This document shows, one piece after another, positions 12,600-42,679 of a stretch of 64,000 bases of DNA. The stretch is from Paralichthys olivaceus (lineage: Eukaryota; Chordata; Actinopteri; Pleuronectiformes; Paralichthyidae). Positions within the stretch are counted from its first letter, which is position 1. Each line of letters starts with the position of its first letter. The notes under the pieces are model-generated. The model ran no database searches. It saw nothing but the letters and a program-made list of their open reading frames with translations, and was not told the origin of the DNA. Location: the NCBI RefSeq assembly GCF_024713975.1, contig NC_091116.1:3000463-3064462 (forward strand), in the 5' to 3' direction. Both the position numbers and the translations under genes were made by a program.

Positions 12600-12935
12600 C
12601 CTCTACAATCCCTCTTTTCTAGATCCTGTGCAAACTTGATGAATGGAAGGGGAGGAACCCATTTAATGTGGATGCAGGTGTGGATTCAGTTTTTTAAATT
12701 TTTTTCACTTTCACAGGAAATTCTCGACATTTTATGTAAAAAATATGTTCCTCTCCATCAGGGAATCGACCCCGGTCTCCCGCGCAGCAGCCGTGGATTG
12801 TTTAGCTAAACGGCCCTAAACACATTCCCATTCATTGTCTATGGTAGTGCTAAACCACTATAGACGTAATGCTCCTCCCGTAATGTCACTGAAAATTTTG
12901 GCGCTGTTTCAGCTTCATCTCCAGTTCTCGGGAGT
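12600..12935 (-). repeat. tRNA-like dispersed repeat R, copy 2
   Basis: Minus-strand copy closely matching 37828-38205. Read on the minus strand it has 'GGGCCGTTTAGCTAAACAAT' (A-box-like), 'GCGGGAGACCGGGG' and 'TCGATTCCCTGATGG' (B-box/T-arm-like), then an AT-rich tail with 'TACATAAAATG' and 'CACATTAAATGGGTTCC'. The head resembles a tRNA D-arm to T-arm region, suggesting a tRNA-derived SINE. The LINE-B 3' end joins it at about 12930. Confidence 0.65.
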
Positions 12936-23960: not shown

Positions 23961-24086
23961 AATAATCCAACAGGAGCCAGCCTCACCTCCAGGTGTTTGG
24001 TCAGCTTCACTGCTGGCACATTGTTGAACTGGAGACAAGAACAGACACAAAATAAGAGATAAGACAACCTGCATCATCTGTGTCAT
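23961..24086 (-). CDS. Signal-peptide exon, copy 1
   Basis: ATG 24086 opens 'MTQMMQVVLSLILCLFLSP', a good signal peptide, followed by 'QQCASSEADQTPGGEAGSC'. The exon ends at 23961 before GTAAGTATCA, a strong donor. A candidate second exon starts after TTCATGTAG near 23867 but meets a stop after 10 codons, so this copy seems inactive. The near-duplicate at 25167-25292 keeps the frame open longer. The product is not recognised. Confidence 0.4.
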
Positions 24087-24431
24087 CTGTCCCCTTGGTG
24101 TCAGAGAGTTAAAACCACAACCTGTTAGTTATAATAGTTTTCATCCAGGATTGTATCAGTGCCTCATCCATAAGCAAGTCATACACTATACTGAGCCTTT
24201 ATAATCAGTATCAAAGTCCCCGTCTCTTCTCTGCCCACTTAAATACTTCTTATTCATCCAGTAATGAAATGTAACAGAATACTTTATATTAACAAAAGTA
24301 AAAGTAAAGTCACATTATTAAAACCTACTCTACTATAAGAAAAATAGGTCATTAAAATATTTGCATAAATACATTTGGTCAGAAGTATAAATGCATGTAT
24401 ATCTGCATGTATATCTGTATGTATGTATATG

Positions 24432-24482
<51 letters not shown>

Positions 24483-24769
24483 TTTTTATAAATGCGATTT
24501 TAATTTTATTTTGGTAAATCATTTGTTTTATTATATTTCTAATATCTATTTGGTATGTATCATAATGCATATCAACAATGAACTGGTGTCTTTCTTGTTT
24601 TGCACAAGTTAAATCTGGATATATAGATGTGTCATGATGTCAAGAATTATAGTTAGAGAACAGTTTTAGAAGTGTGGTCATAGACACAGCTGGATGAGGT
24701 TTGTGTGACACAGAGTCTCAAACCTACAAAGCAAAGACACATACTCTCTTTTCAACGTTGGGGTCAACG
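24087..24769. other. Spacer with (TA)n microsatellite
   Basis: No gene is seen. About 24 TA units occupy 24432-24479, flanked by TG/TA-rich repeats from 24390. Elsewhere the DNA is AT-rich and unremarkable. Confidence 0.6.
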
Positions 24770-25002
24770 ACTGCACAGTCAGGAGTTTCGAGCTCAGCAA
24801 CAGCGTTTAGTGTCTGTTCCGTCTTCGAAAGCTTGACATACAGCATGTCATCATCCTGCTAGCTCTCACGTTTTCTCTTTCTGTGGAAAAACAGAAAAAA
24901 CACAGAAAGCATGAATTACCAATGTGTAAAACTGTGAGGAAAGAAAAGAACATATAAATTCATGACAGACAAGGTGACTGTGAACTAGTCAGGCAGACTT
25001 AC

Positions 25003-25292
25003 TGTGAGTGGCGGTTGTTCACGGGAGAAGGAAGTCTGTCTCCTGGAGCCCCGTAAACCCCCTTTCCTTTGCTACATAAACACAATCAGACACATAAGAA
25101 GACAAATAGAAACAGTAGCTTAGAGGTGTGTTTGTGTGTGTTTGCATTAATGTGTGTGATACTTACAATAATCCAACAGGAGCCAGCCTCACCTCCAGGT
25201 GTTTGGTCAGCTTCCCTGATGGCACATTGTTGAACTGGAGACAAGAACAGAAACAAAATAAGAGATAAGACAACCTGCATCCTCTGTGTCAT
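25003..25292 (-). CDS. Putative small secreted protein, two exons
   Basis: Exon 1 (25167-25292, 42 codons) starts at ATG 25292 with 'MTQRMQVVLSLILFLFLSP' and ends before GTAAGTATCA. The candidate exon 2 (25003-25071, 23 codons) follows a pyrimidine-poor but usable TTATGTAG acceptor, is in phase, and ends before GTAAGTCTGC. A third candidate exon follows TTTTTCCACAG at 24880, where the frame stops after four codons, giving a predicted 69-residue product: a signal peptide plus a short basic mature part rich in arginine. The arrangement is a tandem duplicate of 23805-24120. No family is recognised, and spliced RNA would be needed to believe it. Confidence 0.35.
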
Positions 25293-25692
25293 CTGTCCCC
25301 TTGGTGTCAGAGAGTTAAAACCACCACCACACATATTTATACCTAACCCAGCCTTGTATAATCTCTGTCCTGATCTTAATATTGTCCTCCTGAACATGAT
25401 GAACCAAAGATGAATAATATCTGTAACCTGTTAACCTGCTCTGTGGTGTTTCCCAGAACTCTAAAGCACAGCACTATCACTGACACCACTGATTCTTTAA
25501 TCAACCACAGAAGAAATCAATCATGCAGTTTTTACAATTTAATACATTTCTTCGTGCCAAACGAGAGGTTTCTAACAAAGTAAACGTCTCTATACTCAGT
25601 CAGGTTAACTTCTCTGAGTACTCATGAATACTCCTCCATTAATAAGTATATTTCTTGATAGAGGTATTGATAAAGTTCCTCTGAATCTCTCT

Positions 25693-25971
25693 CTAACCAA
25701 TAGTAAGTACCTCTGGTTGTGTCTGGTTGTGAGGCCCTGTCTGGCTGAACTCTGGGCCTGACTGCAGGACATTTTGCTGCTGGTCGTTCAGTTCAGCATG
25801 GGGTTCAGCAGGATACTGCTCCTGGGATGGATTGTTGGTGATGCGCTCAAACAGGTCCCGAAATGCATCCCGCTCCAGCACCTCCCTTTTCTCCGCCCAA
25901 CATGCTGACCACTGGCTCCTCATCCTGGCAGTTGTGCACCTGTCTCTTTCACTGTTGTTCTCCTGTGACAT
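25693..25971 (-). CDS. MSQENN-family ORF, copy 1
   Basis: ATG 25971 opens a 92-codon frame beginning 'MSQENNSERDRCTTARM' and containing 'QWSACWAEKREVLERDAF' and 'TNNPSQEQYPAEPHAEL'. The start is preceded by GTTTCTCAGCA, a possible acceptor. Near the end, after 'PHNQTQ', the frame shifts relative to the longer relative at 54422-54892, whose tail ('SDSEELYQYLYHERYLLMEE') is still visible here in another frame at 25620-25690. The end may therefore be a splice donor (AG|GTACTT) or a frameshift. Hydrophilic, glutamine-rich, no signal peptide. Function unknown. Confidence 0.45.
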   Translation of the reverse strand: MSQENNSERDRCTTARMRSQWSACWAEKREVLERDAFRDLFERITNNPSQEQYPAEPHAELNDQQQNVLQSGPEFSQTGPHNQTQPEVLTIG

Positions 25972-26546
25972 TGCTGAGAAACTAGGTTTGAGACACTTTT
26001 AAAGGGTAAAGTATCAGAGATAAAAACACCAAGTGTAAACTATATCTACTACTTCAGTACAATCCAGAGGGAAATCCCCTACATTTCAATGCTCTACATT
26101 TACACGACAAGATAAATGATAATCACTATTTTTACCTCAGCATGCTACTTACATAGCTTACATACTGATAAATACATATAACATTCTGATAAATACATAT
26201 AACATGCTGATAGATGCATATTATTGATCAAATATTATTTATATTATATATTATTATATATATTTGTTTTATTAACAATCAGTCCACAGAAGCTTGTGTT
26301 TACAGATAACTGCATCTTAGTTTTAAAAAAAATGTCGATGTGAGTATTACCTGTTGGGTTCACTGGTTAATCAGTTGGCTGATGAATAATAATATCAATA
26401 ACTGATGTTAAAGAAAGTCAGTATTTTAGACTGAAAATGTAGATTTTCTCTCCAGGCGTCTCTCTCTGCGGTCCACTAGTGAAATGATCAAAGTCACAAA
26501 TTGCTCTGATCATATATCCTTACATTAAAGTTTAAAACTCCTTTAA

Positions 26547-26575
26547 TCCTTTGTTGTTGTCATTGCAACAAAGGA
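26547..26575. repeat. Conserved 10-bp hairpin
   Basis: TCCTTTGTTG and CAACAAAGGA are separated by 9 bases. The same arms and spacer length are kept at 56232-56260 in the paralogous segment, set within 'TTAAAACTCC' repeats. It lies upstream of the minus-strand MSQENN ORF, so it could be regulatory or simply a shared relic. Confidence 0.7.
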
Positions 26576-27130
26576 GAGTTAAAACTCCTCTTTTAAATAA
26601 TTCTTGAAGCCCCTCAATAGAATATGTTATATTCTGCAATTAAATTTGTTGAACATAAACCACTGAGTATTTACTGTTCATGTTTAAGCTTTCTTGCAGC
26701 ATTCAATATATTAAACATATTCTCCTTTAAATCCTCTCTCTGAGCTTTGAATTTGACTTCAGGTGACTCTAAAATCAATATTTTTTTTCTTTCTGTTTAA
26801 GTCCTTTAAGATAGTTTTAAATACTACTTATATATTATAACAGTGTAAATGTTGGATTGCTCCACATAACTTTTATAATCTGCACGGAGTTTGGCTGGAT
26901 AATTGTTTTGTTATTTTATCCATATGGTTTTATCATAGAGACTAATTGCAATAACTGCAATCACCTGACCATAGGTAGCACATAGACGACCTGTTTGTTG
27001 GAGAGATTTCAACCCAAACAAATGATGATGGGAACATTTTGTGTTTGCTCAAGCACTGCTGCTGCATCACGTATAAAACACATAAAAACTTCAATCTGTG
27101 TCTTTCTTCACTTTTATGACTTTTGGGAAG

Positions 27131-27365
27131 CAATCAAAAACTGTTCAAAAATCAGTTTGTTTCAATAATTGTTTTTGAAGCAAGACAATACCGGGACATG
27201 AGTTTATCCACAGGTATTTTTATTTTTATTTAACAAATACAATACATTTGGAGGCAGTTGTGTATTTTGACTCTTCTCCATTTGACTGAGCACCGGAGCA
27301 TTTCTACAATCTCTTATCAAATTCAGAAGAACAGCAATATATTTGTCTTTACATATGTAACTCAG
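27131..27365. other. No gene seen
   Basis: AT-rich spacer after the end of the paralogous segment. Confidence 0.4.
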
Positions 27366-27640
27366 CGGGCAGCACGGTCAAGCAGCAGTTAGCACTGTGA
27401 CAGCACGAAGGTTCCCAGTTCTAATCCCAGTTTGGCCTTGGCCATTCTGTGTGGAGGCAACATGTCCTCCTCATGTCTGTGTGGGAGACATGGAGAGTAG
27501 AGGTTAATTGGAGACACTTATTGTTTGTTACCCTGCTGGAAAACTGTTCAGGATGTACCCTGCCTCTAATGTCAACTGGGAATGGCAACCTTGAAGGTTT
27601 AGCAAAATAGATATTGGATGGATAAATAAACCAACCATTC
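27366..27640 (+). repeat. tRNA-derived SINE-like repeat
   Basis: The head 'GGCAGCACGGTCAAGCAGCAG' plus 'TTAGCAC' resembles the A-box part of the common fish tRNA-derived repeat, and 'GTTCCCAGTTCTAATCCC' its degenerate B box. The body follows the usual order: 'GTGTGGAGGCAACATGTCCT', 'GGTTAATTGGAGAC', 'GTACCCTGCCTCTAATGTCA'. It ends in 'GATATTGGATGGATAAATAA'. Confidence 0.7.
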
Positions 27641-27867
27641 TAAACCCCTTTTTCTGATGTATCATATAAGTGAGGCTTTCTCTGTAGTATCTGGCATCAT
27701 GAGTTGTCCATGTTGCTTATTCACTCATAAGGTAAGCATTTGAACATTGACTATGAAAACTGGTTATAAACCGGTTGTTTTAAATGGATTAAAAAAGTAA
27801 CACATCAGCCAAAATTAAAATATAATGTGCTATGTGTGACCAACTGCTTATTCATTTCTGGATGGTC

Positions 27868-27925
27868 CGTCACATTATTGGAAATAATATTAGTTAGGTG
27901 ATAAGTTGCAGCATCATGTCCCAAT
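27868..27925 (+). repeat. Short repeat shared with 61123-61180
   Basis: 'GTCACATTATTGGAAATA', 'TATTAGTTAG' and 'CATGTCCCAATTGG' occur in the same order at both places with few changes. The flanks differ. It is probably the end of an unrecognised transposable element; 27926-28207 shows nothing further. Confidence 0.55.
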
Positions 27926-28207
27926 TGGCAGTGGCGAACCGTGAGCACTACAGCTGGGCCTTCACCTCAGCCATCACCGCAGAGAAAAGAAATCATCATG
28001 GAAAAAAGCAACAGTACGATGAATTGAAAGGGTTTAACAACTGCAATCCTTTAATTAACTATGACAAAGATGTAAATAAATAGACCATAACATCATTAAC
28101 ATTCTCCACGACAAGAAACATTCTCAACATTAACTTCAGAAAACTGGAGACCATTTAGGCTACATAGTTGAAATTAAATAAACATACTCTAACGCCAAAA
28201 TCTGAAA

Positions 28208-29137
28208 ATGGGACACTTCTGTTTTCACTATACACTAGATCACTAGGCTCTGCATCACATCGCATGGATTCTCTTAACACTGTTATGCTGACGACACCCA
28301 ACTGTTCCTCTCTTTTCCTACATCCTCGTCCAGCACTCACGTTGTGACGTGCATCTCGGAATGGCTGGCAGACATCTCCGCTTGGACAGCTGTGCATCAC
28401 CTCAAACTCAACCTTAGTAAAACTCAACTCCTCTTCATCCCGGGGAAAGACTGCCCTCATATGGACCTGTCAGTCACTGTCGAGGATGTCACGGTATCAC
28501 TTTCGTCGACGGCAAGGAACCTGGGCGTAATCCCCGACAATGGACTGTCCTGCACCCCCAACATCACTGATGTGGCCTGATCCTGCAGGTTTGCCCTCTA
28601 CAATATCTGCAGGATCCGGTCTTTCCTCACAAAAGACACAAAACAACTCCTGGTCCAAGTGCTGGTCATCTCCCACCTGGACTATTGCAACTCCCTCTTG
28701 GCTGTACTCCCAGCCTCTCCCAAATTCTCCCATGTGACCCCCTCCTCCGTGACCTCCACTGGCTTCCTGTTGGGGCCTGCATCCGATTCAAGATGATGGT
28801 GCTGGCCTTCAAGGCCGTCAATGGAACTGCACCCATCTACCTCCAAACACTGGTCAGACCACATGCCCCAGCGAGAGCACTTCGTTCATCAGCTGGCCGA
28901 CTGGTACCCCCATCGCTGAGAGCAAACAAAGCCCGCTCAGCGAAGTTGCGACTCTTCTCTCTTTTGGCACCTCAGTGGATGAACAAACTCCCGAACAATG
29001 TCAGGACAGCGGAATCGCTTACCTTTGTTGGTGAAAACAGACACACAAAGTTGTTGTTGAGATCAATACTCCTGATGCTTCTTCTTCAGTCAGTCCTTGA
29101 AGTTAAAAGAGAAATCGAGGAAGAGAACTGGAGATGA
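28208..29137 (+). mobile_element. L2-B copy 2, 3' part
   Basis: Plus-strand relative of 12886-15330. It starts at RT with 'CYADDTQLFLS' coded near 28285 and runs through 'SVTVEDVTVSLSSTARNLGV', 'PLLRDLHWLPVGACIRFKMM' and 'VRPHAPARALRSSAGRLVP' to a stop at 29135-29137. The frame changes near 28580 and 28690, so it is dead. It is 95% or more similar by eye to 37150-37924, including the junction to the tRNA-like repeat R, so the two are probably duplicates of one composite unit. Confidence 0.85.
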
Positions 29138-29296
29138 AGCTAAAAACAGCCCCAACATGTTCAGTGGCCACGAGAAGCATTACGTCCATAGTAGTTTAGT
29201 ACTACCATAGACAATGAATGGGAAAGTGTTCAGGGCCGTTTAGCTAAACTAACCACGGCTGCAGCGTGGGGGCCAGTCGAGAATACTGGACCAGTC
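29030..29296 (+). repeat. tRNA-like dispersed repeat R, copy 3
   Basis: Matches 37828-38080 from 'GAAGTTAAAAGAGAAATCG' through 'CTACCATAGACAATGAATGG' and 'GGCCGTTTAGCTAAAC'. The B-box part is not kept: the copy diverges into 'GGCTGCAGCGTGGGGGCCAG'. Confidence 0.6.
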
Positions 29297-30690
29297 CAGC
29301 AAGCCAATAGGATCGAAGCATTCTCTCTGGGTCCGTTCATTTATTTATTTATTTCCGATTCCCCAAAAGACAGGGTTCACATCCCGACCGCGCTGTTATT
29401 GAATGTGATATTTCTGAGCAAAAAGCATTGAAAATACGTGGCGATTAACAATTAATTACGTTTTTGTAAGTAAAAATATATATTTTTGCAGTTTATAGAA
29501 TGTAAATGCTACTACATTGAAAATGGTGAAATACTACTTCAACCTATTTCCAGTGTCTTTGTGGAGATCTTATAATGTTTTTTTATGTCTTCACATGATT
29601 TTAACAGTGTGTTTAATTATCATTAAAATCCTCCATTCTTATGACTCAGAACTTTTTGTCTTTGTGGAAATCTTTTAATGTTTTTTTTTAGTTCTTCACT
29701 TGTTTGTAACAGTGTGCTTAATTATCATTAAAATCCTCCTTTCTTATGACTCATGACTACTATGACTACTATATTGTTTTTATTTAAGCAGGACAAAAAG
29801 GCAGTGTGCAATATTTCAAAGAAAGTTCCAGTTTTATTTATTATGTGAAATAATGTATATATGACAAATGAAATAATTGGACTGTAAGTAAAGTTTTAGA
29901 AATAATATAGATAATTTAAGACAACAATTAGATATGACAATGACACAGTACATACATAGGGAGGGGGAGTATACAGTGATAGATACAGTGCTGGTTAATA
30001 TGACAAGTAGAAAACTGGTGTTTCTGGTCATGCAATAATGTTAAAGTAAGTAAAAAAATTAAGTAAAAGAAAGAAAAAACTATACAGCTATATTCAGCTC
30101 AACAGAAGTCTAAAGAACCTATGATCTATAGACATATAACCATGCAGAACAATTAACATAATAACCCAATAACATATGAACCTTTTCATGTTTACAATCT
30201 ATTTACTTTCATACAGAAGACTAGACGGAAGCATTGACTTATTTACATCCAAACGATTGTTAACAACAGAGCACTAAGTACATCTGTACAACAAAACAGT
30301 CCAAACTATGCACAAAAGATCAAGTTTCTACATACTGGCATATATACCTTTCACACATTCATACATTCAGACATTTGTAAAATAAAGAAAGAAATTTAAA
30401 AAAAAGAACACAACAAACAAACCAAACTAGTTTCTGGTGTGTACATTTTCATGCATTCACACATAAATAAAAGAACAAAAGAAAAGAAAAACAATATATG
30501 TACACTTTGTTTTACAACTATTAATGTGTAGTCTATTTACATATACACAGACAAAGAACCTGTACGTCTAGAGACATATACACAAGTCAAATAAGAAACA
30601 TTAAGAACAATAATGAAATAAACAATAATGAAATAAAATAATGAAATAAAATCAAATAAAATGGGTACAAACAATGGGTATACAGGGAAA
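29297..30690. other. AT-rich region with a ~108-bp tandem duplication
   Basis: No gene is seen. Two imperfect copies of a unit beginning 'GTCTTTGTGGA' and ending 'TTCTTATGACTCA' occupy about 29550-29652 and 29658-29757. The remaining 900 bp are AT-rich, including A-rich stretches at 30385-30500 and an 'AATGAAATAA' repeat near 30610-30660. The latter lies just 3' of the large minus-strand gene; no AATAAA was assigned with confidence. Confidence 0.6.
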
Positions 30691-31757
30691 TCATTTCTTC
30701 CTTTCTTCCACAGTTCTTTGTCTCTCAGCCTCATAGAAAGGAGACTGCCGAAACTCGGGCCAGCTCATCTCCTTGGCCATGCCCTTATCTCTGTACAAAG
30801 AGTACACCTTTGATGGGCAATAAATGTATTTCCCTGCCACTCCAGGGAAGCCCGTGTGAATGTGAGGGCTGTTTGGTCCCTGTTTCAGTTCCAAGCGGCA
30901 GAATCTGCAGAGGCGGACTGTTGGTTGTGGGTGTGGTTGTGGGTCTGGTTGTGGGTCTTGTCTCTTCCTCTTTTTCTCCCTCTTATCATCCACCCGTTTT
31001 CTGGTCGCCTCCAGCTCCCTCTGAAAGAACTCTGTCCGCGCAAACTCCTCAAAGGACATTTTGGGGTCTGAGAGTCCCTCAGCAGCATAAGTCTGATGCA
31101 CCTTTCTAGAGCAAAAGAAATAGCACACAGACCCTTGCTGGTAAAAGTGGTGGACAGTGGATCCATCAGTTTGAAATTCAGACTTGGGCTGTCCACAGGC
31201 AAGACAGGTTTTTGTCTGTCTTCTCTTCTGCTGTTGCTGTTGTTGTTGCTGTTGCTGCTGGTACTGCTGCTTCTTCAAAACATCCTCCACTATTTTGTCT
31301 ATCGACTCTTGTGACAGATGTGTGGGTGGTGCAGGTGGATTCACGGTGGCGGGCTCCATGGTGACCACAGGAACGGTGGTTGTCTCACTCCCCTTTGTCA
31401 AAGAGTGCCACAGATGTTGAGTCTCCTCAAGTGATTCCTGGCCCGTGTTCAAAGATGAACTGATGTTCAGCAGTTTGGCCAGGTGCTTCACATAGCGGGA
31501 GATGTGTAGCTTGGTTGTGGGATGAAGCAGGCTGTTCGGATCTGTTGCGGCTTGATGGACCATGCTTGCATAATCTTGATCCACAAGATTAAGCATGTCC
31601 TTCTCCCCGTGGTACCTCTGCAGCAAGCTGTCGATGGTGGCTCTCATGGGTGCCGTCCACCTTGTGTGGTCAAACACATAAACCCGTCCACCTGTCTTGA
31701 CGGGTCCAGTGCGGGCACTCCTCGGCGAGGACCGCTGTGGCAGGGCATATGAAAGTT
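30691..31757 (-). CDS. Large transposase-like gene, exon 6 (last)
   Basis: Acceptor TTGTGTTTCAG precedes 31757 and the stop TGA is at 30691-30693; 1,067 bp, entering in phase 1. It encodes about 355 C-terminal residues. Near the middle is a glutamine tract (11 Q) from a CAG/CAA-type run at 31220-31262. After it come two similar zinc-binding-like units: 'CLACGQPKSEF' ... 'CYFFCSRKVHQTYAAEGL' and 'CRFCRLELKQGP' ... 'YIYCPSKVYSLYRDKGM', each CxxC ... H ... C with a shared 'C-S-K-V-x-x-x-Y' end. A basic, proline/glutamine segment separates them. The tail is charged. The frame is fully open, in step with exon 5. Confidence 0.8.
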
Positions 31758-34700
31758 CTGAAACACAATAAAGAAAAATTAGTTCCTTAGTTAATCATTT
31801 AAAATCATTACAATGTAATACAAATATGTATGCCCCAAACTCTATGTTAACTTACCCATTGCTGCGGGAGGTTCCTGGCTTTCGTCTGTCGTCGGCATCT
31901 CGTGCTTTAGACGATGGCCAACAAATGGTGCTGGTCCAGGGGATGGTGCGTCAGGGTGCTGTGTCCAGCTGGAGGAGGGTGCTGGTCCGGGAGGTCGTGT
32001 GCCAGAGCGCGGTGTCCAGCTGGTGGCGGGTGTCACCTCTGGTGCTTGGGCAGGACCGGGTGACGGAGGCACAAGAGCAGCAGGTTCAGCAGTCTTTTGT
32101 GCTCTGTGTTTGGCCCAATCCAGAGGGACTGGACGGCAGCCTGGCTCATGGTACTCCAAGCCAAACTTCTCGCCGGTGTCCCTGTCAGAGAGGTGGAGTG
32201 CAGGATACTTCTCTTCTCCAGTCACTCTCCTTGAGGCAGAGTTCAACTCCGCTGTCAAAGCTGGATCGAAGACAGCAGGGAGGATGACGCCTGGCTGCTT
32301 CAGGTCCACCAGCCGTTGAAAGTTCCACCGCGCCACTCCGGTCATGCCCTGGGCCTGGAACAGTTCGGTGGAGACATGAGTCCCCGTGACCCACTGGGCC
32401 TGGTGGAAGTGGTACCCCTCCTGCTGCGACGTACCTCTGACAGGGATCCATATCGGAACTTTGGCGCCTTCTCCAGCTACGTGGTTTAGCTGGAGAGTTC
32501 CTCCGTACCTGTACATAATGCCCTCTGTGAGTTCAGGGTCGCTGAGGCAACCACGGAGAATGTGGACTCTCTGGATGCGCCATCTCTTAAGCATGGACCG
32601 CTTAAAGAGTCGGACGCCGTTGGGGTCCGTGGCGAGGTGAAAGTGTTTCATCACTTTCTCGACTCTGTCCAGCAGCTCTGCGGGGTGTGGGATTCTGGTT
32701 CTGCAGTGCTCTCTAGTGTGTTGCTTCGTGGGATTGGCCGGACGGATCCGGCAGAACTCGTAGGCGTCCCGGAGTCGCTTCAAGTCCTCCTGATCCACCA
32801 CAGAGAAGGCAGCAGAGAGGAGCTGGCAGAACGTGCTATACAGGCTGTGGTGTTCGGAGACGCACTCGCGTGCAAAACGCCTCATACAATGGAACAGGTC
32901 CAGTTTTACAACAATGCTGCCATTGAAATGAGAGGGTGAGGCACAGGTGTTTGCCAGCGGTCCAGCGGTGGCTTCAGCAATAATGGAAGGGGTCGTCTTC
33001 CACGCTTCCCAGTGCAAATGCTCATCAGGAAGGCAGTCTGGGATTTTGAACGGAGCACAGCAGTCCCTGCAAGGCACAAAGATACATAAGCATTACTGTC
33101 AGGACTGTCTTGCACTTTTATTTGTGTAGTCCCTCTGTACCCTTATGTCTCTTCCTGTTTCCCATTGTTTACTTCCTGTCTTTTGTACTTCCTTATTCCT
33201 GCCATGTGTGCCTCTGTTTACCCTTGTCATGTGTTCCTGTGTCTCCACCCCTCACCTGTTCCCAATTAGTAGTCTTGTCAATTCCCTTGTTTAGTTCATC
33301 TGTGTCTTGTTATCTAGTTTGCCCTTGTGCATGTAAACCCTTGTCTTCCCCTCAGTCTCTGCTGGTCATCGTTTCGTGTGTTTCATGTTATATGTTACTA
33401 TCGCGGTTGGTTTCATAGTCCTGTCCTTTTTTGTAAGTCTTAAGTTTGATTAAATGTGCATTTTGGGTACTGCACAGAAGAAAACCCTGGCTATTCTTTT
33501 TTCAACAAAGTTATTTTGTTAATTAGACATGGCATCGGCAATTTGAGTGACAGTGAAAAAAGAATATTGCTGTTCTCACCTGTCCATCCAGTGGTAGCCT
33601 GCCTTTTCCACTCCCGCGTCACTGTACCTCTTGGCCATTCCTCGGTACATCGGCTCCAAGGACCTCTCAGTCTCAGCCTGAACCATCACCCAGGAAACAA
33701 TCAGCCAGTTCTCGTTCATTACTGCATAACTGGACATGACTCCAGATGCCAACGTCACTTTGCGCGCAACCTTCCTGGTGTGATCAGACCTAAAGGTCTG
33801 CCCGAAGGTGCCCTGGAGGAGTTTGGAAATGGCCGGCTCCTGACGTCTGTACTCGTTCAGAAGGCAGTCAGTCAGGTAAAAACCAGACACAGAGACTCCA
33901 CACCAGCCATCAGGATCGTCGTATGATCCGAAAGCACGAGGCTGGTTTTCCCTCCTCAGGAACTGCCCGATGGTCCTCTGTCCGTGCACGCCAGCCTCAG
34001 CATCCCAGACACCCTCTATGGCTTGTAGGTAGGCCAGGTGAGCTCGCTCATACCTGAGATGCAGGAGCTCGTTCACTTGGTTTGCCATGTCGTTCGGCGA
34101 CTTCCCAGTGCGCCTCAGCTCGTGCATCACTGACTTGCAGATGGCCTTCTTGTAAGTCACAAGCGCGGGCAGAAGGTTCAAGAAGCGCTTGGGCAACATC
34201 TCAAGCCATGGCGGACTGTCAGCATACCAGTACTTGCCACAAGCCTTGCAGGAGAGTCGCGAAGACAACATGTAGTATTGACCACTGGTGCAAACAATCA
34301 CACGAGGCCTGCCCACACCAGCTGAGACCACCTGCGGATGAGGACAGCCATGATGACATGGCAGGACGTAACAGTTTCTCATCCTGGCCATGATGTCAGC
34401 CTCAGGCTTCCAAATGAAGAAAGGATGGAGCCGAAAGAAGTTGGGGGATGGGAGCTCAGCCGTCGTCTCAATTAGCTCAGGTTGTGGGGGTAGACGCCAC
34501 AGGGAAATTGTGTTGCCGGGGTTACGCACTGGCCGAGACCCAGGCCACAGCCCGAGATCCTTTAGCTCTGTCTTCATCCACATCTTCTGCTGGTGTGAAC
34601 AGTTCCAGTGGAGGACATCTTGGTCCTGCCTCAGCAGAGGCACACGAACAGGTTGAGGGACAGGAACAGGCGCCTGAGCTGAGGGAACTAAGATTTTTAG

Positions 34701-35273
34701 AAGGAAAACAGATAGAACAAAATGGTTATTACTGCCCTGTTATTCATTATTGATTTAATAGTTAGATATTAGATAGATAATAAAGCAGTGTTAAGACAAC
34801 ATCTTAGTGTCAGGAGTTCGTAAAATAGAGTTTGTCTGCATGCTCTTACCATCTTCAGCACTGTCCTCGAAAGTAAGCACTTTGCGTGCAGCGGTGTGAG
34901 CAGCGCTTGTGCTGGGACCTAAAAAAGAGTGAAGTCTTTCTGTTATGCATTTGTACAGGCTATAAGCATGAAAAAGAAAATGACACTGAGTTAAATAAGC
35001 CATGCATTAAGCAGAAAGCATACCTTGAGTTGACTCTGTCTCCTGCACCAGGAATGCCAGCTGTGGTGGAAGGGCAACGGGTGTCCTCTTCTTCACACTC
35101 TGAGAGGCTGGAGCTGTGGGAAAGTATACAGTCAAAATGAAACAATTAATATTTTCTAAATGAACACAACATTTGATAACACAAACAGGATAAGAGTGTT
35201 TTTACCATCAACTGGTGATGCCCGCGGTTGACCAGTTGTATCAGGGGGGGTTTGGACAGCGTCTCCGATGGGA
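30691..35273 (-). CDS. Intact six-exon KDZ/DUF6729-like transposon-derived gene
   Basis: Whole-gene entry. Six exons (35206-35273, 35024-35113, 34850-34918, 33580-34687, 31856-33066, 30691-31757) sum to 3,613 bp and give one uninterrupted frame of about 1,203 codons. Every junction is GT/AG and in phase, which neutral decay would not keep. Order of parts: low-complexity N-terminus, Cys/His cluster domain (~residues 100-220), RNase H-like Asp/Asp core (~440-480), basic and proline-rich region, poly-Q, two zinc-binding-like units at the C-terminus. Such proteins are typical of large eukaryotic DNA transposons of the KDZ type or genes derived from them. I see no terminal inverted repeats. It may be an active transposon gene or a domesticated host gene. 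Family naming is from memory and tentative; gene reality is well supported. Confidence 0.75.
31856..33066 (-). CDS. Large transposase-like gene, exon 5 (core)
   Basis: This 1,211-bp exon lies between acceptor CCTTGCAG (33067-33068) and donor GG|GTAAGT (below 31856). It begins with the completed codon of '...WMDR' followed by 'DCCAPFKIPDC', then 'VVKLDLFHCMRRFAREC'. These two aspartates in an Asp...Asp arrangement, the second followed by 'xFHxxRR', look like the catalytic core of an RNase H-fold transposase; this is inference. Later come 'RFKRSMLKRWRIQRVHILRG'-like basic sequence, 'GTSQQEGYHFHQAQWV', 'ARWNFQRLVDLKQPGV' and a proline-rich C-terminal part. No internal stop in about 403 codons. 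Confidence 0.82.
33097..33475 (+). mobile_element. LTR-like insertion in intron 4
   Basis: Starts TGTCAGGACTGTCTTGCAC and is pyrimidine-rich with 'CACCTGTTCCCAATTAGTAG' and 'GATTAAATGTGC' near the end, like fish LTRs of the type at 62102. It lies wholly within the intron (33067-33579) of the large minus-strand gene and on the opposite strand. The right end is uncertain and I found no target duplication. Confidence 0.4.
33580..34687 (-). CDS. Large transposase-like gene, exon 4
   Basis: A 1,108-bp exon from acceptor AATCTTAG (above 34687) to donor CAG|GTGAGA (below 33580), in phase with both neighbours. It encodes about 369 residues. A cysteine/histidine cluster 'CYVLPCHHGCPHPQ' and a later 'CKACGKYWYADSPPW' suggest a zinc-binding domain; 'FFRLHPFFIWKPE' before it and 'KAICKSVMHELRRTGKSP' after it recall what I remember of DUF6729. 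Then come 'LLHLRYERAHLAYLQA', 'GYDDPDGWCGVSVSGFYL'-like sequence and the end '...AGYHWMDR', which carries the first candidate catalytic Asp across the splice junction. Confidence 0.82.
34850..35273 (-). CDS. Large transposase-like gene, exons 1-3 visible
   Basis: Three short exons: 35206-35273 (68 bp), 35024-35113 (90 bp) and 34850-34918 (69 bp). Acceptors are GTTGTAG, TTTCCCACAG and TTTTTTAG; donors are G|GTAAAA, G|GTATGC and G|GTAAGA. All three introns after them are phase 1 and the joined frame is open into exon 4. The encoded peptide is low-complexity, Pro/Ser/Thr-rich ('APASQSVKKRTPVALPPQ', 'AARKVLTFEDSAEDG'). No start codon is seen in 35206-35273, so at least one upstream exon is missing; I could not identify it in 35274-35570. 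Confidence 0.7.
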
Positions 35274-35575
35274 CTACAACAGAGAACATAATTTGTCATT
35301 TGAGAATTCACAATGTACAAAAGTTTCAGTGTTAGTAGGAACTAAAACAGCCATACGTATACTTCTCCTGCTTCTCATAGCTTCACAAATGTAAAATGTC
35401 TAATTCCCACACTACAGATCAGTCTTTGTAAATACAGGGAACACAAACTTATCAATGTTAGGCCTCAGTGGAAATTACTTTTCAAATTCCAGATCACTGT
35501 ACAAGGCCACAACACACAATGACTTATCCTTAAGAGAACAGCGCCACCGTCCTGTCGATGTGGATATTGCACCAA
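35274..35575. other. Upstream of the large gene, nothing assigned
   Basis: Could contain the 5' exon and promoter of the large minus-strand gene, but I see no convincing start codon with a donor, nor a TATA element. Confidence 0.35.
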
Positions 35576-35647
35576 TCCTCGTTAGTATAGTGGACAGTAT
35601 CTCCGCCTGTCACGCGGAAGACCGGGGTTCGATTCCCCGACGGGGAG
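35576..35647 (+). tRNA. tRNA-Asp (GTC)
   Basis: A 72-nt sequence that folds as tRNA-Asp: acceptor TCCTCGT pairs with ACGGGGA before the discriminator G, with one G-U; anticodon loop CTGTCAC has GTC at 34-36; T arm CGGGG-TTCGATT-CCCCG is perfect. Compared with the usual vertebrate gene, the 27-43 pair is T-A instead of C-G (both sides changed) and two bases differ in the D loop. A run of four T residues is not seen close downstream. It lies 16 bp before the truncated L2-B copy, so the terminator may have been lost to the insertion. Functional or a recent pseudogene; structure favours functional. Confidence 0.85.
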
Positions 35648-35663
35648 AAGCATTCTTCTTGAC

Positions 35664-36413
35664 ACTCTTCAACATCCCCCCAGAGAAGCTGCGCTCCTCT
35701 GAATTCATTGACCCACCGGTCCAGGAATCAACTCGATCTTGTCTTCACAAGGTCCTGTAGTACCTCGGCACTCTCTGTTACCCCAATCACTGTGTCTGAC
35801 CACCACACTGTCACTTTCTCTCTCCCCTTAAAATTCACCACCTCCCTCGCCCCCAGACCTCACACGGGCAACACCCGCTGCAATCTGAAATCCCTCTCTC
35901 CCTCTGCTCTCGCCTCTACTGTTCTTTCCTCACTACCATCTACAGACCAATTTTCACTAATATCTACTGAGGAAGCCTCCTCCACTCTGCTATCATCCCT
36001 CTCGAGGACAGAGAGCATCTAAAGAGGTGTCCTCTTTAGATGCTCTCTGTCCTCTCACCTCCCTACCGGCAGGATCATCTCCCCCCTCCCTGGCTGTCTG
36101 AATCTCTGCGAACCAATAGATCGGTGCTACGAGCAGCAGAGAGAAAATGGAGAAAATCACATCATCCTGATGACCTTGCCCATTACCACCACCTCCTCTC
36201 TGACTTCACCTCAACAGTATCAGCAGCTAAATCTGCCTTCTACCTGTCAAAGATCAATTCCTCTGCCTCCAACCCCAGGAAACTATTTTCCTTATTCTCT
36301 TCTCTTCTCTTCTCTTCTCACCCCTCCTACTCCTCCCCCTCCTTCCTTCCTCACTGCTGATGACTTTCCAACTTACTTTACCAAGAAAGTAAAAGACATC
36401 AGCTCCTCATTTA
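35664..36413 (+). mobile_element. L2-B copy 3, endonuclease part
   Basis: Plus-strand relative of 16790 down to 16030. Coded pieces are 'FNIPPEKLRSSEFI' (frameshifted from the GDFNIP box), 'TVSDHHTVTFSLPLKF' and 'SVLRAAERKWRKSHHPDDL'. The copy is 5'-truncated at 35664, contains the hairpin at 36004-36054, and is interrupted at 36414 by a MITE. Confidence 0.85.
36004..36054. repeat. 24-bp perfect inverted repeat (3-bp loop)
   Basis: 36004-36027 (GAGGACAGAGAGCATCT...) is exactly complementary to 36031-36054, with TGT between. The related L2-B copy at 16395-16440 has only one arm, so the other arm is a local inverted duplication in this copy. Confidence 0.92.
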
Positions 36414-36931
36414 AGCCTAGTTTATGCTTCTGCGTCACGTCGACGCCGTAGCTACGGCGTAGCTACGGCGTAGACGCAGACCCCTACGCCGTAGCCTGAC
36501 GTGCGCCTCCCAAAAATCCTAACTACGCGGACGTCGACGGGGACCGTAAGCGCTGTGATTGGTCCGCTCAGAACGTAAGTTCCGGCAGTTGCTTTTCCGG
36601 TCTTTCTTCCTCGTCGTAAAAACCAGCTCCGCAAACGTTTTCTTTGTAGCTTGCGCTTCAACATTTGCAATATAAGCATTTGTTCTTCAATATTGATGAG
36701 CTCCAACAACAAAAACAGCTGCTCCACCTCGGTCGCCATTGTTTACTGTTGTTTACTTTACGGAAGAAAAAGCGAGGATTCGGCTAAAACCACACAACCA
36801 CACCGCTACACCCCCTAGCGGCATGGCGGTGAATTGCAGAGCAACGCGTTCCCTCGACGCAGAACTTCGAATGCTCAACGACCTACGGCGTAGGTACGGC
36901 GTCGACGTGACGCAGAAGCATAAACTAGGCT
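36414..36931. mobile_element. PIF-Harbinger MITE (518 bp)
   Basis: Terminal inverted repeats of 37 bp match perfectly (start AGCCTAGTTTATGCTTCTGC), followed by repeated ACGGCGTAG motifs. The target triplet TTA is duplicated at 36411-36413 and 36932-36934; the empty site is visible in the L2-B copy near 16045 (CATTTACTCC on the minus strand). A three-base TTA/TWA duplication is characteristic of PIF-Harbinger. The interior keeps a minus-strand frame of 95 codons from ATG 36739 ('MATEVEQLFLLLELINIEEQ'), which resembles the start of a Harbinger transposase gene, so this is probably a deletion derivative. Confidence 0.9.
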
Positions 36932-37924
36932 TTACTCCTATGCCCATCCAGAAAGCACCTCCCCCAAACCTCACCTCTGATGGCCTTACCTGCTTCAGCC
37001 CTCTCTCCTCTGAAGATGTTCTCACGCTAGTGACGTCTAATCGTGCCACCACCTGTTCCCTTGACCCGATTCCCTCCTCCCTTCTCCAAGACATCTCTCA
37101 CGACACAGCTGACATCCGTAACTACAGACCTGTATCTCTTCTTTCATTCCTCTCTAAAACATCTCCGCTTGGACAGCTGTGCATCACCTCAAACTCAACC
37201 TTAGTAAAAACTGAACTCCTCTTCATCCCGGGGAAGGCTGCCCTCATATGGACCTGTCAGTCACTGTCGAGGATGTCACGGTATCACTTTCGTCGACGGC
37301 AAGGAACCTCAGCGTAATCCTCGACGATGGACTGTCCTGCACCCCCAACATCACTGATGTGGCCTGATCCTGCAGGTTTGCCCTCTACAATTTCTGCAGG
37401 ATCCGGTCTTTCCTCACAAAAGACACAACACAACTCCTGGTCCAAGTGCTGGTCATCTCCCACCTGGACTATTGCAACTCCCTCTTGGCTGGACTCCCAG
37501 CCTCTCCCAAATTCTCCCATGTGACCCCCTCCTCCATGACCTCCACTGGCTTCCTTTTGGGGCCTGCATCCTATTCAAGATGAAGGTGCTGGCCTTCAAG
37601 GCCGTCAATGGAACTGCACCCGTCGACCTCCAAACACTGGTCAGACCACATGCCCCAGCGAGAGCACTTCGTTCATCAGCTGGCCGACTGGTACCCCCAT
37701 CGCTGAGAGCAAACAAAGCCCGCTCAGCGAAGTTGCGACTCTTCTCTGTTTTGGCACCTCAGTGGATGAACAAACTCCCGAACAATGTCAGGACAGCGGA
37801 ATCGCTTACCTTTGTTGGTGAAAACAGACACACAAAGTTGTTGTTGAGATCAATACTCCTGATGCTTCTTCTTCAGTCAGTCCTTGAAGTTAAAAGAGAA
37901 ATCGAGGAAGAGAACTGGAGATGA
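36932..37924 (+). mobile_element. L2-B copy 3, RT remnant and C-terminus
   Basis: Continues the copy after the MITE: 'MPIQKAPPPNLTSDGLTCF', 'TTCSLDPIPSSLLQDISHD', 'DIRNYRPVSLLSFLSKT', then a deletion that removes most RT blocks including YADD, and 'SLSRMSRYHFRRRQGTSA' onward to the ORF2 end at 37924. From about 37180 it is nearly identical to 28370-29137. Confidence 0.85.
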
Positions 37925-38205
37925 AGCTAAAAACAGCCCCAACATGTTCAGTGGCCACGAGGAGCATTACATCCATAGTAGTTTAGCACTACCATAGACA
38001 ATGAATGGGAAAGTGTTCAGGGCCGTTTAGCTAAACAATCAACGGCTGCCGCGCGGGAGACCAGGGTTCGATTCCCTGATGGCGGGGAACCTATTTCTTT
38101 ACATAAAATGTTGAGAATTTCCTGTGAAAGTGAAAAAAATAAAAAACCTGAATCCACACATGCATCCACATTAACTGGGTTCCTCCCCTCCATCAAGTTT
38201 GGTAG
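37828..38205 (+). repeat. tRNA-like dispersed repeat R, copy 4 (best preserved)
   Basis: The plus strand has 'GGGCCGTTTAGCTAAACAAT' (A-box-like), 'GCGCGGGAGACCAGG' and the B box GGTTCGATTCC at 38065-38075, then 'CTGATGGCGGGGAACC' and a shared tail ending 'CCCTCCATCAAGTTTG'. The order is that of a tRNA-derived SINE head. It matches 12600-12935 (reverse), 29030-29296 and 11375-11580 (reverse). Confidence 0.7.
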
Positions 38206-38408
38206 AAAAAGGTTAATTCTTTTTTTTAGTAATCTGGCAAACAAATAAACCAATAAACAAACAGAGGTAATAAATGGATCCTTCTTTTTTTACCATTGTA
38301 ATTGTAATTTCAAGAACATTTAAATATCCTAAATAAATAAAACAAACAAAAAACAATAAAATAGACTCTTTTGTAAAGTTCTGGAATTGCCGTTTGTGAC
38401 ATGTATTT

Positions 38409-38600
38409 TCACGCAGGCAATTCATACTGTCTGTCAAACGTTTGCAGCATTTCTCTAAATAGTTTGAAGCCGAAATATTCCCACACCAGGGCTGTGGCAT
38501 TTGGCTTTGCAATCATCTTTTTGCCTCGCGTTGCTCCGCACGAGGCTGACTTGCTGCACTCTGTGTGTGTAGCCAATGCTAGCAGTCCAGCCTCCCCCAC
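38409..38600 (-). pseudogene. hAT-type transposase fragment, BED-finger start
   Basis: The minus-strand frame contains 'KKMIAKPNATALVWEYFGFK', which matches the opening of the BED zinc finger in hAT transposases and ZBED proteins. The cysteines and histidines that should follow are absent; the frame runs into unrelated sequence ('LFREMLQTFDRQYELPA'). It is therefore a fragment cut within the finger. Confidence 0.55.
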
Positions 38601-38623
38601 AGAGACAAAGAGACTGGATGACT

Positions 38624-38707
38624 GACAAGAGGGTTCACTCCGTTCATTCCGCTATGGAACAAACGAGCTTAGGTGCTGAGACTGAGCACGGAGTGAACCC
38701 TCTTGTC
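38624..38707. repeat. 20-bp perfect inverted repeat, 44-bp loop
   Basis: GACAAGAGGGTTCACTCCGT (38624-38643) is the exact complement of ACGGAGTGAACCCTCTTGTC (38688-38707), with a further GGAT/ATCC pair outside. It lies just upstream of the minus-strand BED-finger fragment. Confidence 0.9.
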
Positions 38708-38844
38708 ATCCAGCCAGCTTGGAGGCAAGAGACGAGGAAAACAAACATGCATGCACATGGCAATATATCGAGGCCGGAAAAATTATTGAGTTCATTTTAA
38801 TTTATCGTGCGATTAATTGATTTATTGATTATCAGCCTAGGCCC

Positions 38845-39085
38845 ATATATACTATTTACTTCCTCAATTTACTTTGTATTCCATTTACATGCTGAAAAAC
38901 ACATTTGGGCCACAGTGTAGAAATTGTGAAATAAAACCTTTGACAGTGCTCCCACTTTGCTGGGGACAGTGGAGGGGGCTGAGGCCTTAATACAACAATA
39001 TACTTTATTTGTACACATTCACATGGATAGATTTAATCTTTTTTTTTGTTGAGTTTATTAGTCTAAGCCAAGAAATATACACAGG
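38845..39085. repeat. Dispersed repeat block, inverted copy of 11755-12015
   Basis: Reverse-complement match to 11755-12015 along its length, including 'GGACAGTGGAGGGGGCTGAG' and 'TTATTAGTCTAAGCCAAGAA'. No coding potential. Confidence 0.75.
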
Positions 39086-39096
39086 AATACACACAG

Positions 39097-39270
39097 GCTT
39101 ACAGCATACCAGGAAGGGACATAGCAGACACAATAAGTAGCATAAGGGACACAATAGCACACATGAAAGGAGGGATAATCTTAAATTTAGATATAAACAA
39201 AGCATTTGATAGAGAAGATCACAGTTACTTATATAGTGTATTAGAAAAAGTAGGGTTTGGGCCTAGTATG
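39097..39270 (+). mobile_element. LINE reverse transcriptase fragment
   Basis: A 58-codon plus-strand frame reads 'SIPGRDIADTISSIRDTI' and 'GGIILNLDINKAFDREDH', which are RT blocks (PGR...D and LDxxKAFD) of an L1/Tx1-like LINE. It stops abruptly at the telomeric repeat. Confidence 0.75.
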
Positions 39271-39301
39271 GTAGGGTTAGGGTTTAGGGTTAGGGTTAGG
39301 T
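39271..39301 (+). repeat. Interstitial telomeric repeat
   Basis: GTAGGGTTAGGGTTTAGGGT followed by TAGGGTTAGG: about five TTAGGG units, one with an extra T. It lies exactly between an RT fragment and the 3' end of an L2-C element. Confidence 0.88.
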
Positions 39302-39792
39302 AATGTCCCTACATTTAAGGCTAGACTTAAAACCTTCCTTTTTGATAAAGCTTTTAGCTCTACCCTGAACCATAGTCATCCATAGCTATGCTGCTATAGG
39401 TCTACACTGCTGGGGGATCATCCATCAGGCACCAGCACCTTTCTATCTTCCTCTCTCTTCTTCACTCTCTGCCTGGTTTATTTTGTTATATCTTATTACA
39501 TATCTCTAATTCCTTGGGTCTTCTCCTCCCCTCCTTGGTCCATGCTGTGCGGCTCTCCGGAGCCCGTCCTGGTTCGGGTCCTGATGAGGGATGGACCTAG
39601 TGGAGGTAGCCAGTCTGTCGCATGGGCCAATGTGTTTAATGTGCAAGTGCTGTCAAATATATCCAGTATATATCCTTGCTGGCCCATCCACTGCAGACAG
39701 AGGGGGAAAGCTGACGTGGAGCTCCGGGATCCCCTCCCTCTCCTGTTTATAATGCATGAAAATCTAACTTGACCAGTTGATGCAGTTTTTGC
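39302..39792 (+). mobile_element. L2-C 3' end, copy 2
   Basis: Begins with the coded end of ORF2 ('TFKARLKTFLFDKAFS') and a 3' UTR with 'CTGCTATAGGTCTACACTGC' and 'CTGTTTATAATGCATG'. It is the inverted counterpart of 10117-10865, without that copy's insertion. 39793-39995 holds nothing that I recognise. Confidence 0.75.
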
Positions 39793-39995
39793 CGCCGACT
39801 TGTTGATGCCTTTTGAGTACCTGTAGAGGGCTCCGATATGGATGATACTTCATCCTGTTGCTCCTCCATAGATGTTTCTTTAGGTGTCTGGAGATATTAA
39901 TGACAGATATCAGACTGATGAAATCAAGTAAAAATAAATGTTCCAATACAGTCAATATCTTTCATGTGTGTATGTGGCAGTGTAGATGTATTTCA

Positions 39996-40999
39996 CTACA
40001 TCAACTGAGAATTATATAAAACCCCCGACCGTGGGGCAGGAACAGGAACTGGGGGGCCGCTCGCTGTAACCCCCAGCCGAGGGGCAGGAACTGGCGAGAC
40101 GACTGCTTGAACCCCCGACCGCGGGGCAGGAACAGGAACTGGAGATCCACTCGCCGTAACCCTCAGCCGAGGGGCAGGAACTGGCGAGACGACTGCTTGA
40201 ACCCCCGACCGTGGGGCAGGGACTGGAACCGGAGTGGAGCCAGACGGGACCCGCAACCGAGGGGCAGGAACAGGAAGTGGAGAGCCACTCGCCGTAACCC
40301 CCAGACAAGGGGCAGGAGCTGGCGAGACGACTGCTTGAACCCCCGACCGTGGGGCAGGAACTGGAGCGGCGACCTCCGAGACCGAAACGTGAGTAGCATC
40401 TGCCGGGATCTCCGACGCCGGAACATGAGTGACGTCAGCCGGGACCCCCGACGCTGGAACGTGAGCAGCATCTGCCGGGATCCCAGACGCCGGAACGTGA
40501 GTGACGTCAGCCGGAACCTCCGATGCTGGAACTTGAGTAGCGTCTGCTGAGACCCCCAACGCCGGAACGTGAGTGACATCAGCCGGGACCCCCGGCGCTG
40601 GAACGTGGGGGGCTTCTGCTAGAATCCATGATATCCTGACTTGAGGTTGCCGCTTGTGAGCTGGTGGAGATGGATGGAAACAGAGTGAGGGGGCTCCCCT
40701 CCGGTGTCCACCCCGCACCGCAGCGATTCTACACAGAATCCAAAAGCCAGGCGGGTGCCGAGGTAGTGATCAGCAGGGGGAGTTGGGGGTGAGAGGATGT
40801 CCTTGAGTCTCTTCTCTAAGGTCACCAGGTGCGGGACAAAGTGGCTGACCCAGGGTCTGTCCTCAAGCCAATCCCGCACAGGTGCCATCCTCTCCAGGAG
40901 CTTTGCACGCTGCTTGGTGCCTGCGGTGCTTAGCTCGTCAACTAAGGAGTCTAAATAAAAAACCTTGCTACAAAAAAGATAAAGCTCTGCTTGGTCCAT
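39996..40999 (-). pseudogene. ORF with proline-rich tandem repeats, LTR-element-like
   Basis: ATG 40999 opens 'MDQAELYLFCSKVFYLDSLV' and runs about 95 sensible codons ('DWLEDRPWVSHFVPHLVTLE', 'LKDILSPPTPPADHYLG'). A frameshift near 40690 leads into a second frame with about seven units of PADVTHVPASGI type (39 bp each, 40380-40600) and about four longer units built on PVPAPRSGVQAVVSP and PRLGVTASG (40000-40370). The ATG lies 15 bp after an LTR-like end (41014-41155). I think it is the internal part of a non-autonomous LTR element. No RT, protease or zinc knuckle is visible, so its family is unknown. Confidence 0.5.
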
Positions 41000-41013
41000 A
41001 TCTGGTTGGTACT

Positions 41014-41160
41014 GTCAAGGCTGGAGGGTGTGGGGAGGGAACAAACGTGGTAGGAAAAAGGGAAGGGAAGGACCAAAACGCAGAAACTAAATATTCTTTA
41101 ACATAAAGTGTCTTTTATTTAAAAAAGGTAAAAGTAACGAAATAAATCTTCATAATTCAT
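41014..41160 (-). mobile_element. LTR 3'-end fragment
   Basis: Matches 62102-62245 ('CAAACGTGGTAGGAAAAAGG', 'AAAACGCAGAAACTAAATAT', 'AAAGTGTCTTTTATTTAAAA'). Read on the minus strand it has AATAAA followed by GACACTTTATG and ends ...CTTGACA, an LTR-like end next to the ORF at 39996-40999. Confidence 0.6.
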
Positions 41161-41176
41161 ACATAAACCAATCCTT

Positions 41177-41404
41177 TTAGCCCAGTATTAAGTGGAATAT
41201 ATTAAATGAAATGGAAACAGTCAAACACATCTGTAGAAGCATTGACAATTGTAGAGACCGTATTTGACCAACTCTCACAAAGCACTGCTCAATAGCCATG
41301 AATCTGTGAGTGAAATTAAAATATGAAACCTTTATTTGCAGTGTAAAATCCCATTGAACACATGAACAACACACAACAATACAATGCTTAATCACAGAAT
41401 GTCG
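41177..41404. repeat. Dispersed repeat block, inverted copy of 1-306
   Basis: Reverse-complement match to the first 306 bp of the window, without the AT-rich insertion. It lies just beyond the LTR fragment. Confidence 0.75.
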
Positions 41405-42446: not shown

Positions 42447-42671
42447 ATGAACATTCTGGTAAGAAATTTTTTTTTTAGAAATGTATGTTCAGGTTGTGTT
42501 GAGTGGACTTTTAATAATGAATTCCATGTTTCTATTTTTCAGACATGTGGAACAATGCAGTTTGAGATTAAGGCTCTGAAAGAGAAGCTCAAACAGAACG
42601 ATGAGCTCCTTTTAAGCGAGCAGGAGAAAATGACAGCTCGCTCTAAAGCCCACATTGGCGAAAAAAAGTAA
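42447..42671 (+). pseudogene. Coiled-coil gene copy A, truncated
   Basis: Exon 1 ends at 42458 after 'MNIL' (ATG 42447) with donor GTAAGA; an 84-bp intron ends TTTTTCAG at 42542. Exon 2 encodes 'TCGTMQFEIKALKEKLKQND' and then leaves the family sequence ('LLLSEQEKMTARSKAHIG') to a stop at 42669-42671. Copy B (63255-63902, minus) has the same intron length and position and a further ~100 residues. The farther upstream ATG of copy B is GTG here and that frame has a 1-bp indel. The gene is cut about 10 bp before L1 no. 2, and that L1 lacks its 3' end, so the junction looks like a rearrangement breakpoint. Confidence 0.65.
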
Positions 42672-42679
42672 TCGTGGTA

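Follow-up and report, generated by a model that had tools for sequence, protein, structure and literature searches.

What kind of gene is a long, split reading frame that stays open on the minus strand of a 64,000-nucleotide (nt) stretch of the Paralichthys olivaceus genome (588 Mb in 25 contigs; the stretch, hereafter the window, is C24:3000463-3064462 on contig NC_091116.1)? An earlier note on this DNA had taken it for an intact transposon-derived gene, either recently active or domesticated, and had compared it to KDZ-type transposons. Taken as a whole, we consider it very probable that the gene is the remainder of a transposon of the Dada superfamily, most likely of the Dada-tD/tV type, that it coded for a presumed Asp-Asp-Glu (DDE) transposase, which likely inserted the element at the anticodon arm of transfer RNA (tRNA) genes for Gly and Asp, and that this copy is 5'-deleted and decaying. 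The placement rests on the motif set, the zinc clusters and the 5' ends of relatives at tRNA 3' halves, each set against published descriptions of Dada. Since sister copies end against broken halves of tRNA genes, the gene belongs to a known kind of transposon and is not a new host gene.

Structure of the gene

The frame runs from 35273 to 30691 in six exons (35273-35206, 35113-35024, 34918-34850, 34687-33580, 33066-31856 and 31757-30691; all features of the gene are on the minus strand), joined across five GT/AG introns into 1,203 codons up to the stop with no internal stop. Splice sites, open frame, a DUF6729 domain and 104 homologues mark 30691-35273 as the C-terminal 1,203 codons of a Dada-type transposase gene. 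The earlier note had described this exon structure correctly; its word 'intact' has to go, because the frame begins at a splice acceptor, the upstream exon is lost and exon 1 falls one base short of its counterpart in each of the sister copies (see below). Relatives across several fish orders extend about 275 residues further at the N-terminus, and at the protein level the window holds no match to this part better than E 0.09.

DUF6729 is the sole Pfam family matched by the joined protein at E<=1 (E 3.4e-15, residues 134-305; 33999-34514), and together with the DDE-type motifs it bears out the proposal of a large DNA-transposon gene carrying this domain. Inside it sits a predicted zinc-binding cluster of the N-terminal CCCC type known from Dada (C186, C190, C222 and C225, codons within 34239-34358), these cysteines being kept in 52, 42, 51 and 51 of 52 relatives, respectively. 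The cysteine clusters reported earlier are all present, at residues 186-225, 1033-1064 and 1132-1162, as are the 11 glutamines (residues 1015-1025, 31228-31260), a tract whose length varies between the three close copies. The two C-terminal zinc units (C1033xxC...C1064, 31111-31206; C1132xxC...C1162, 30817-30909) are indeed related, the second being a diverged repeat of the first (13 of 40 residues identical, E 3e-7 in a single comparison), and by eye each has the CxxC...H...C pattern of the Dada-type C-terminal CCHC cluster.

Predicted catalytic motifs and relatives

A search with residues 80-850, in which the 7,986 candidates with the most shared words were scored, gave 104 proteins, and the named homologues among them come from fish and are mostly annotated 'uncharacterized' or 'hypothetical'. 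Another eight came from two further searches, and three of these belong to the sea cucumber Holothuria leucospilota. Conservation of the motifs was counted in an alignment (A2) of 54 of these 112 proteins, from which we excluded chimeric and fragmentary ones; an earlier alignment (A1) held 65 of 104 proteins, and the tree 42 of 112. The predicted first catalytic aspartate, D377 (SDHTRK, 33783-33785), is kept in 52 of the 53 relatives with a letter there; the predicted second, D444 (WMDRDCC, 33582-33584), immediately before the exon 4/5 junction, is D in 49 and N in 3 of 52. A DxxH motif follows, D501-H504 (LDLFHC, 32889-32900), with D in 47 and H in 43 of 48, and the predicted third catalytic residue, E661 (GTSQQEG, 32418-32420), is E in all 49. 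Strict patterns applied to all 112 proteins, fragments and chimeras included, find the four motifs together in 30 and D+D+E in 56. Alignment, order and spacing thus suggest D377, D444 and E661 as the catalytic residues. The earlier note had put forward two aspartates, of which the one in WMDRDCC is the second of this triad; the other, in VVKLDLFHC, belongs to DxxH, and D377 and E661 had escaped it.

Comparison of folds lends weak support to a Dada-type transposase core: the modelled structure matches the bacterial transposase ISCth4 (PDB 6xgx, 6xg8), with 14% identity over 220 aligned residues. A first model was poor (mean predicted local distance difference test score 54.8) and was set aside. 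Foldseek gave no match at E<=0.001 against PDB and BFVD, and a sequence-profile search of PDB nothing at E<=1; the P element and RAG1 are absent from one listing of fold matches, an absence that does not exclude them.

By identity the fish relatives divide into groups A and B. In a quick tree of 43 rows (42 proteins and that of the window) a branch with support 94 separates group A from the remaining rows, and the window protein falls within this group (support 96, starred, for a 15-row set), nearest to Megalops at 85% identity. Tarpon and wrasse proteins cluster with cypriniform ones (support 92), contrary to host phylogeny, and are 88% identical to a Carassius protein over 371 residues; this discordant grouping might reflect horizontal transfer. 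The upstream exon missing from the window is present in relatives and sister copies, where it carries the motif FGKYKGK, and the N-terminal part of the relatives matches ExoX-like_C weakly (Pfam E 0.004-0.016, under the curated cut-off).

5' ends of sister copies at tRNA halves

A 601-base probe identified three close copies, 97-98% identical: that of the window and two sisters at C12:1.69 Mb and C24:3.147 Mb. The earlier note had proposed to count the copies; at the protein level at least 49 exon-level matches were found, including more distant relatives on other chromosomes, a lower bound with 32 of 227 candidates scored.

The 5' end of the C24 sister reads ...GTTTAGCTAAAC, a 12-nt palindrome, followed by 13 nt, then CGCGCG and then the 3' half of a tRNA-Gly gene (34 of 35 nt). 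The C12 sister has the same 5' end, followed by an Asp-like tRNA 3' half (a weaker match). Two more distant relatives, at C5:23.47 and on C14 (62-69% to query P0005 over the core exons), lack the palindrome; the C5 copy abuts the 3' half of a tRNA-Asp gene and the C14 copy a 3' half that is Gly-like. In all four the tRNA is broken in the anticodon arm and the gene lies opposite to it. The CGCGCG at the 5' end of the C24 and C12 copies may be compared with the 6-7 bp target-site duplication that Dada shows at both ends. Eight ends with the palindrome were seen across the window and both sister loci; a tRNA half adjoins five of these, and the other three are mutually homologous.

Several observations weigh on the other side. 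The target preference is read from individual loci, and a tRNA half is seen at four of the nine other gene-bearing loci whose 5' flank was searched; the truncated window copy itself has none. The remaining five loci show no tRNA half: the C13 copy is truncated inside the subterminal repeats, a different element breaks into C10:25.56, C4 has no Dada 5' end within the stretch searched, and for C5:21.30 and C10:24.34 the search covered 1.5 kb of flank.

Might the gene belong to another superfamily with a C/DxxH motif (MuDR, hAT, P or Kolobok) that resembles Dada, its tRNA neighbours being due to tRNA-rich flanks? The DxxH motif is common to these superfamilies (PMC8869645). The locus also adjoins an intact tRNA-Asp (GTC) gene (35576-35647, plus strand, opposite to the transposase gene), and about 56 bp past the tRNA-Gly half at the C24 junction lies, on the minus strand, a tRNA-Val-like 5' part (L007:998-1036). 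Yet all four gene-bearing copies with a located 5' end, each on a different contig, have that end against the 3' half of a tRNA broken in the anticodon arm, so that chance neighbourhood is no explanation, and the domain order agrees with Dada; we regard this alternative as very improbable. The intact tRNA-Asp gene was itself considered as the insertion target and rejected, as at the C24 sister locus the same gene lies about 1.6 kb past the element's 5' end and is thus a neighbour, part of the flanking DNA and not of the element.

The same ends bear on a Kyakuja-Dileera-Zisupton (KDZ) origin, the type named in the earlier note. Zisupton elements occur in fish, and a large cysteine-rich transposase in a fish host would suit such an origin. 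No KDZ family is among the Pfam matches at E<=1, for which reason this reading was dropped, and the relatives' ends lie at tRNA halves. Moreover, the terminal 60 nt of the element at C24 find no inverted word of 13 nt or longer in about 6 kb past the 3' end of the gene, the 3' end of the element being unlocated, whereas Zisupton is described as having terminal inverted repeats (TIRs) and 8-bp duplications (PMC12730594). In the window, where the copy is without its 5' end, no inverted pair of 25 nt or longer brackets the gene. A KDZ gene is hardly credible here.

Truncation and decay of the window copy

Both sisters retain the upstream exon, matched over about 226 codons (C24:3150727-3151404 and C12:1692526-1693203), and a DNA comparison finds nothing like this exon in any part of the window. 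The loss maps to a deletion junction at 35412-35416: window position 35416 aligns with 3149855 of the C24 sister and window position 35412 with 3154386, so that about 4.5 kb is missing, including the upstream exon, the 5' end of the element and the tRNA-Gly 3' half. The sisters carry lesions of their own, a one-base deletion in exon 5 at C12, and a one-base deletion in exon 4 together with 31- and 8-base deletions in exon 5 at C24. The window copy is predicted to yield no full-length transposase.

Coding divergence among the three copies is 0.58, 0.76 and 0.84%, which suggests that the family was functional until recently; the recent activity proposed in the earlier note would hold at the level of the family. 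The ratio of nonsynonymous to synonymous differences (pN/pS) is 1.50 and 1.05 for the window against the two sisters and 1.33 for the third pair, values of 1.05-1.50 that point to neutral decay and not to domestication. For an unconstrained frame of this length that acquires 0.05-0.15 indels per substitution, the chance of having escaped every lesion falls to P 0.05 at 0.6-1.1% divergence, and the chance of holding no more than one falls to P 0.05 at 0.9-1.7%. Neutral decay thus fits the measured 0.58-0.84% and the single slip.

A Dada transposase retained by the host for a cellular role, as dDada is in cyprinoid fish, would explain the 1,203 open codons and the five preserved splice-site pairs, and an in-frame ATG upstream of exon 1 (35299-35297) could start a shorter protein. 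Against it, the ratio of substitution rates omega is incompatible with 0.2 in the window-versus-sister tests (P 1.5e-4 and 8e-5) and fits 1, although 0.5 is not clearly rejected (P 0.06 and 0.07). The 5' exon is lost, the frame slips in exon 1, and the window copy retains all the predicted catalytic residues, whereas in dDada the catalytic residues are often mutated (PMC8869645). The earlier suggestion of domestication under selection is therefore not upheld for this copy, and we judge it very improbable.

All three copies lie in common flanking DNA (window 24001-29501 against the C24 sister, 97.4%; window 24469-35416 against the C12 sister, 97.9%) and therefore arose at least in part by segmental duplication, not by three separate transpositions; despite these common flanks the C12 and C24 copies bear different tRNA halves past their 5' ends. 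Large parts of window 24001-41284 match C24:3.136-3.160 Mb, mostly at 96-98% and at 87% at the right end, and the duplication up to 35416 also matches C12:1.68-1.69 Mb at 98%.

Proposed course of events

We propose that a DDE transposase encoded by the element inserted it into tRNA-Gly and tRNA-Asp genes, at the anticodon arm. By analogy to Hermes and ISCth4, D377, D444 and E661 would coordinate the metal ions of an RNase H-like core that cuts the element ends, and a helical insertion between DxxH and E would order the DNA; H504 of DxxH may contact the phosphate at the cut, a role known from Hermes and, by position, from ISCth4. The N-terminal DUF6729/zinc region and the C-terminal units would bind the element ends, the target or both, and the palindrome of 12 nt that this sub-lineage carries 13 nt in from its 5' end is a candidate recognition site. 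The window copy would then have lost its 5' exon and 5' terminus in a single deletion of about 4.5 kb, its exon 1 would have fallen out of the sisters' frame, and the close copies would be decaying neutrally.

A wider proposal, which we regard as possible though rather doubtful, is that these copies represent an undescribed arm of Dada that targets an anticodon-stem motif common to Gly, Asp and Val tRNA genes and not one tRNA, its 5' end marked by the palindrome at a fixed distance of 13 nt to the cut. On this proposal all Dada transposases would bind zinc and read the element end or the target through DUF6729, and an ExoX-like FGKYKG module would stand ahead of that domain. The available parts of the two Dada papers (PMC8869645, PMC3706591) do not mention such a module.

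Other features of the window

Three related Dada-type 5' ends occur elsewhere in the window. At 38025-38082 (plus strand) the palindrome GTTTAGCTAAAC is followed by 13 nt, CGCGCG and a tRNA 3' half, and this end belongs to another copy or to a derivative; at 29238-29268 (plus strand) the palindrome and 13 nt have no recognised tRNA 3' half adjoining; and at 12751-12811 (minus strand) such an end precedes a tRNA-Asp-like 3' half. The tRNA half at 38043 was rejected as the flank of the window gene, since it follows Rex1-like sequence of a long interspersed nuclear element (LINE) and recurs at 12784; a reading of it as unrelated to Dada was rejected in turn, the sister loci showing it to adjoin the Dada-type 5' end of another copy or derivative. 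LINE fragments, presumably of the Rex1 family, lie directly inside the three ends (28372-29270, 35668-38025 and 16800-12811), and 28372-29270 and 37159-38057 have 900 bp in common at 97%. These LINE-bearing ends may belong to a non-autonomous Dada derivative. At 11404 (minus strand) another degraded Dada-like end precedes the 3' half of a Gly-like tRNA, which matches at 82% over 28 nt.

An element of about 520 bp with 50-bp inverted repeats, 96% complementary, occupies 36413-36932, and by eye a relative of it lies inside the 5' region of the C10 Dada copy (L032). A near-perfect hairpin with arms of about 24 bp stands at 36003-36055 and matches microRNA models far under their cut-offs, and 42612-43991 (minus strand) holds a reverse transcriptase frame (RVT_1, E 3e-43). 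Outside the window, a reading frame upstream of a Dada copy (L033, C4:27783600-27787375) resembles a retrovirus-type or Maverick integrase.

Significance

The Dada superfamily, its targets and its decay are already known. Modestly new are the assignment of DUF6729 as the Dada zinc region and the finding of one lineage against both Gly and Asp tRNA halves; no link between DUF6729 and Dada was found in print in the literature searched. Such a link would allow many 'uncharacterized' fish and sea-cucumber proteins to be called likely transposases. Few DNA transposons choose a defined sequence for insertion as Dada does, and because its sites lie in many-copy genes it is a candidate for site-directed gene insertion; the family described here supplies a set of 5' junctions for testing target recognition.

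Comparison with known systems

Members of the Dada superfamily insert into multicopy small-RNA genes, with 6-7 bp target-site duplications at both ends and no TIRs. The closest counterparts are Dada-tD and Dada-tV of ray-finned fish, which insert into the anticodon arm in the orientation opposite to the tRNA (Kojima 2022, PMC8869645); in Dada-tV, which has been found inserted in tRNA-Val, -Gly, -Asp and -Ala, CGCGCG stands in place of CACGCA (PMC8869645). The family of the window agrees with them in its anticodon-arm position, opposite orientation, CGCGCG junction, DDE and DxxH motifs and fish hosts, and both tRNA-Asp and tRNA-Gly are among their recorded targets. It differs in that the window copy is 5'-truncated and that its group A is separate from group B, which holds the proteins of several species with named tD or tV families (a match of species, not of sequence).

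Dada-U6_DR (Kojima and Jurka 2013, PMC3706591) likewise has DDE and DxxH motifs, many exons, a CCCC zinc cluster before the core and a CCHC cluster after it. Its two aspartates are 68 residues apart, compared to 67 in the window protein, whereas the spacing from D to E is 176 compared to 217; its target is U6 small nuclear RNA, and the window protein has two C-terminal cysteine units. ISCth4, of the IS256 family, is by contrast a bacterial element with TIRs that moves by copy-out/paste-in. The domesticated dDada of Cyprinoidei, derived from Dada-U6 (PMC8869645), shares the superfamily, yet it stays at a single locus and its catalytic residues have often mutated, whereas in the window family the residues are kept and the copies decay.
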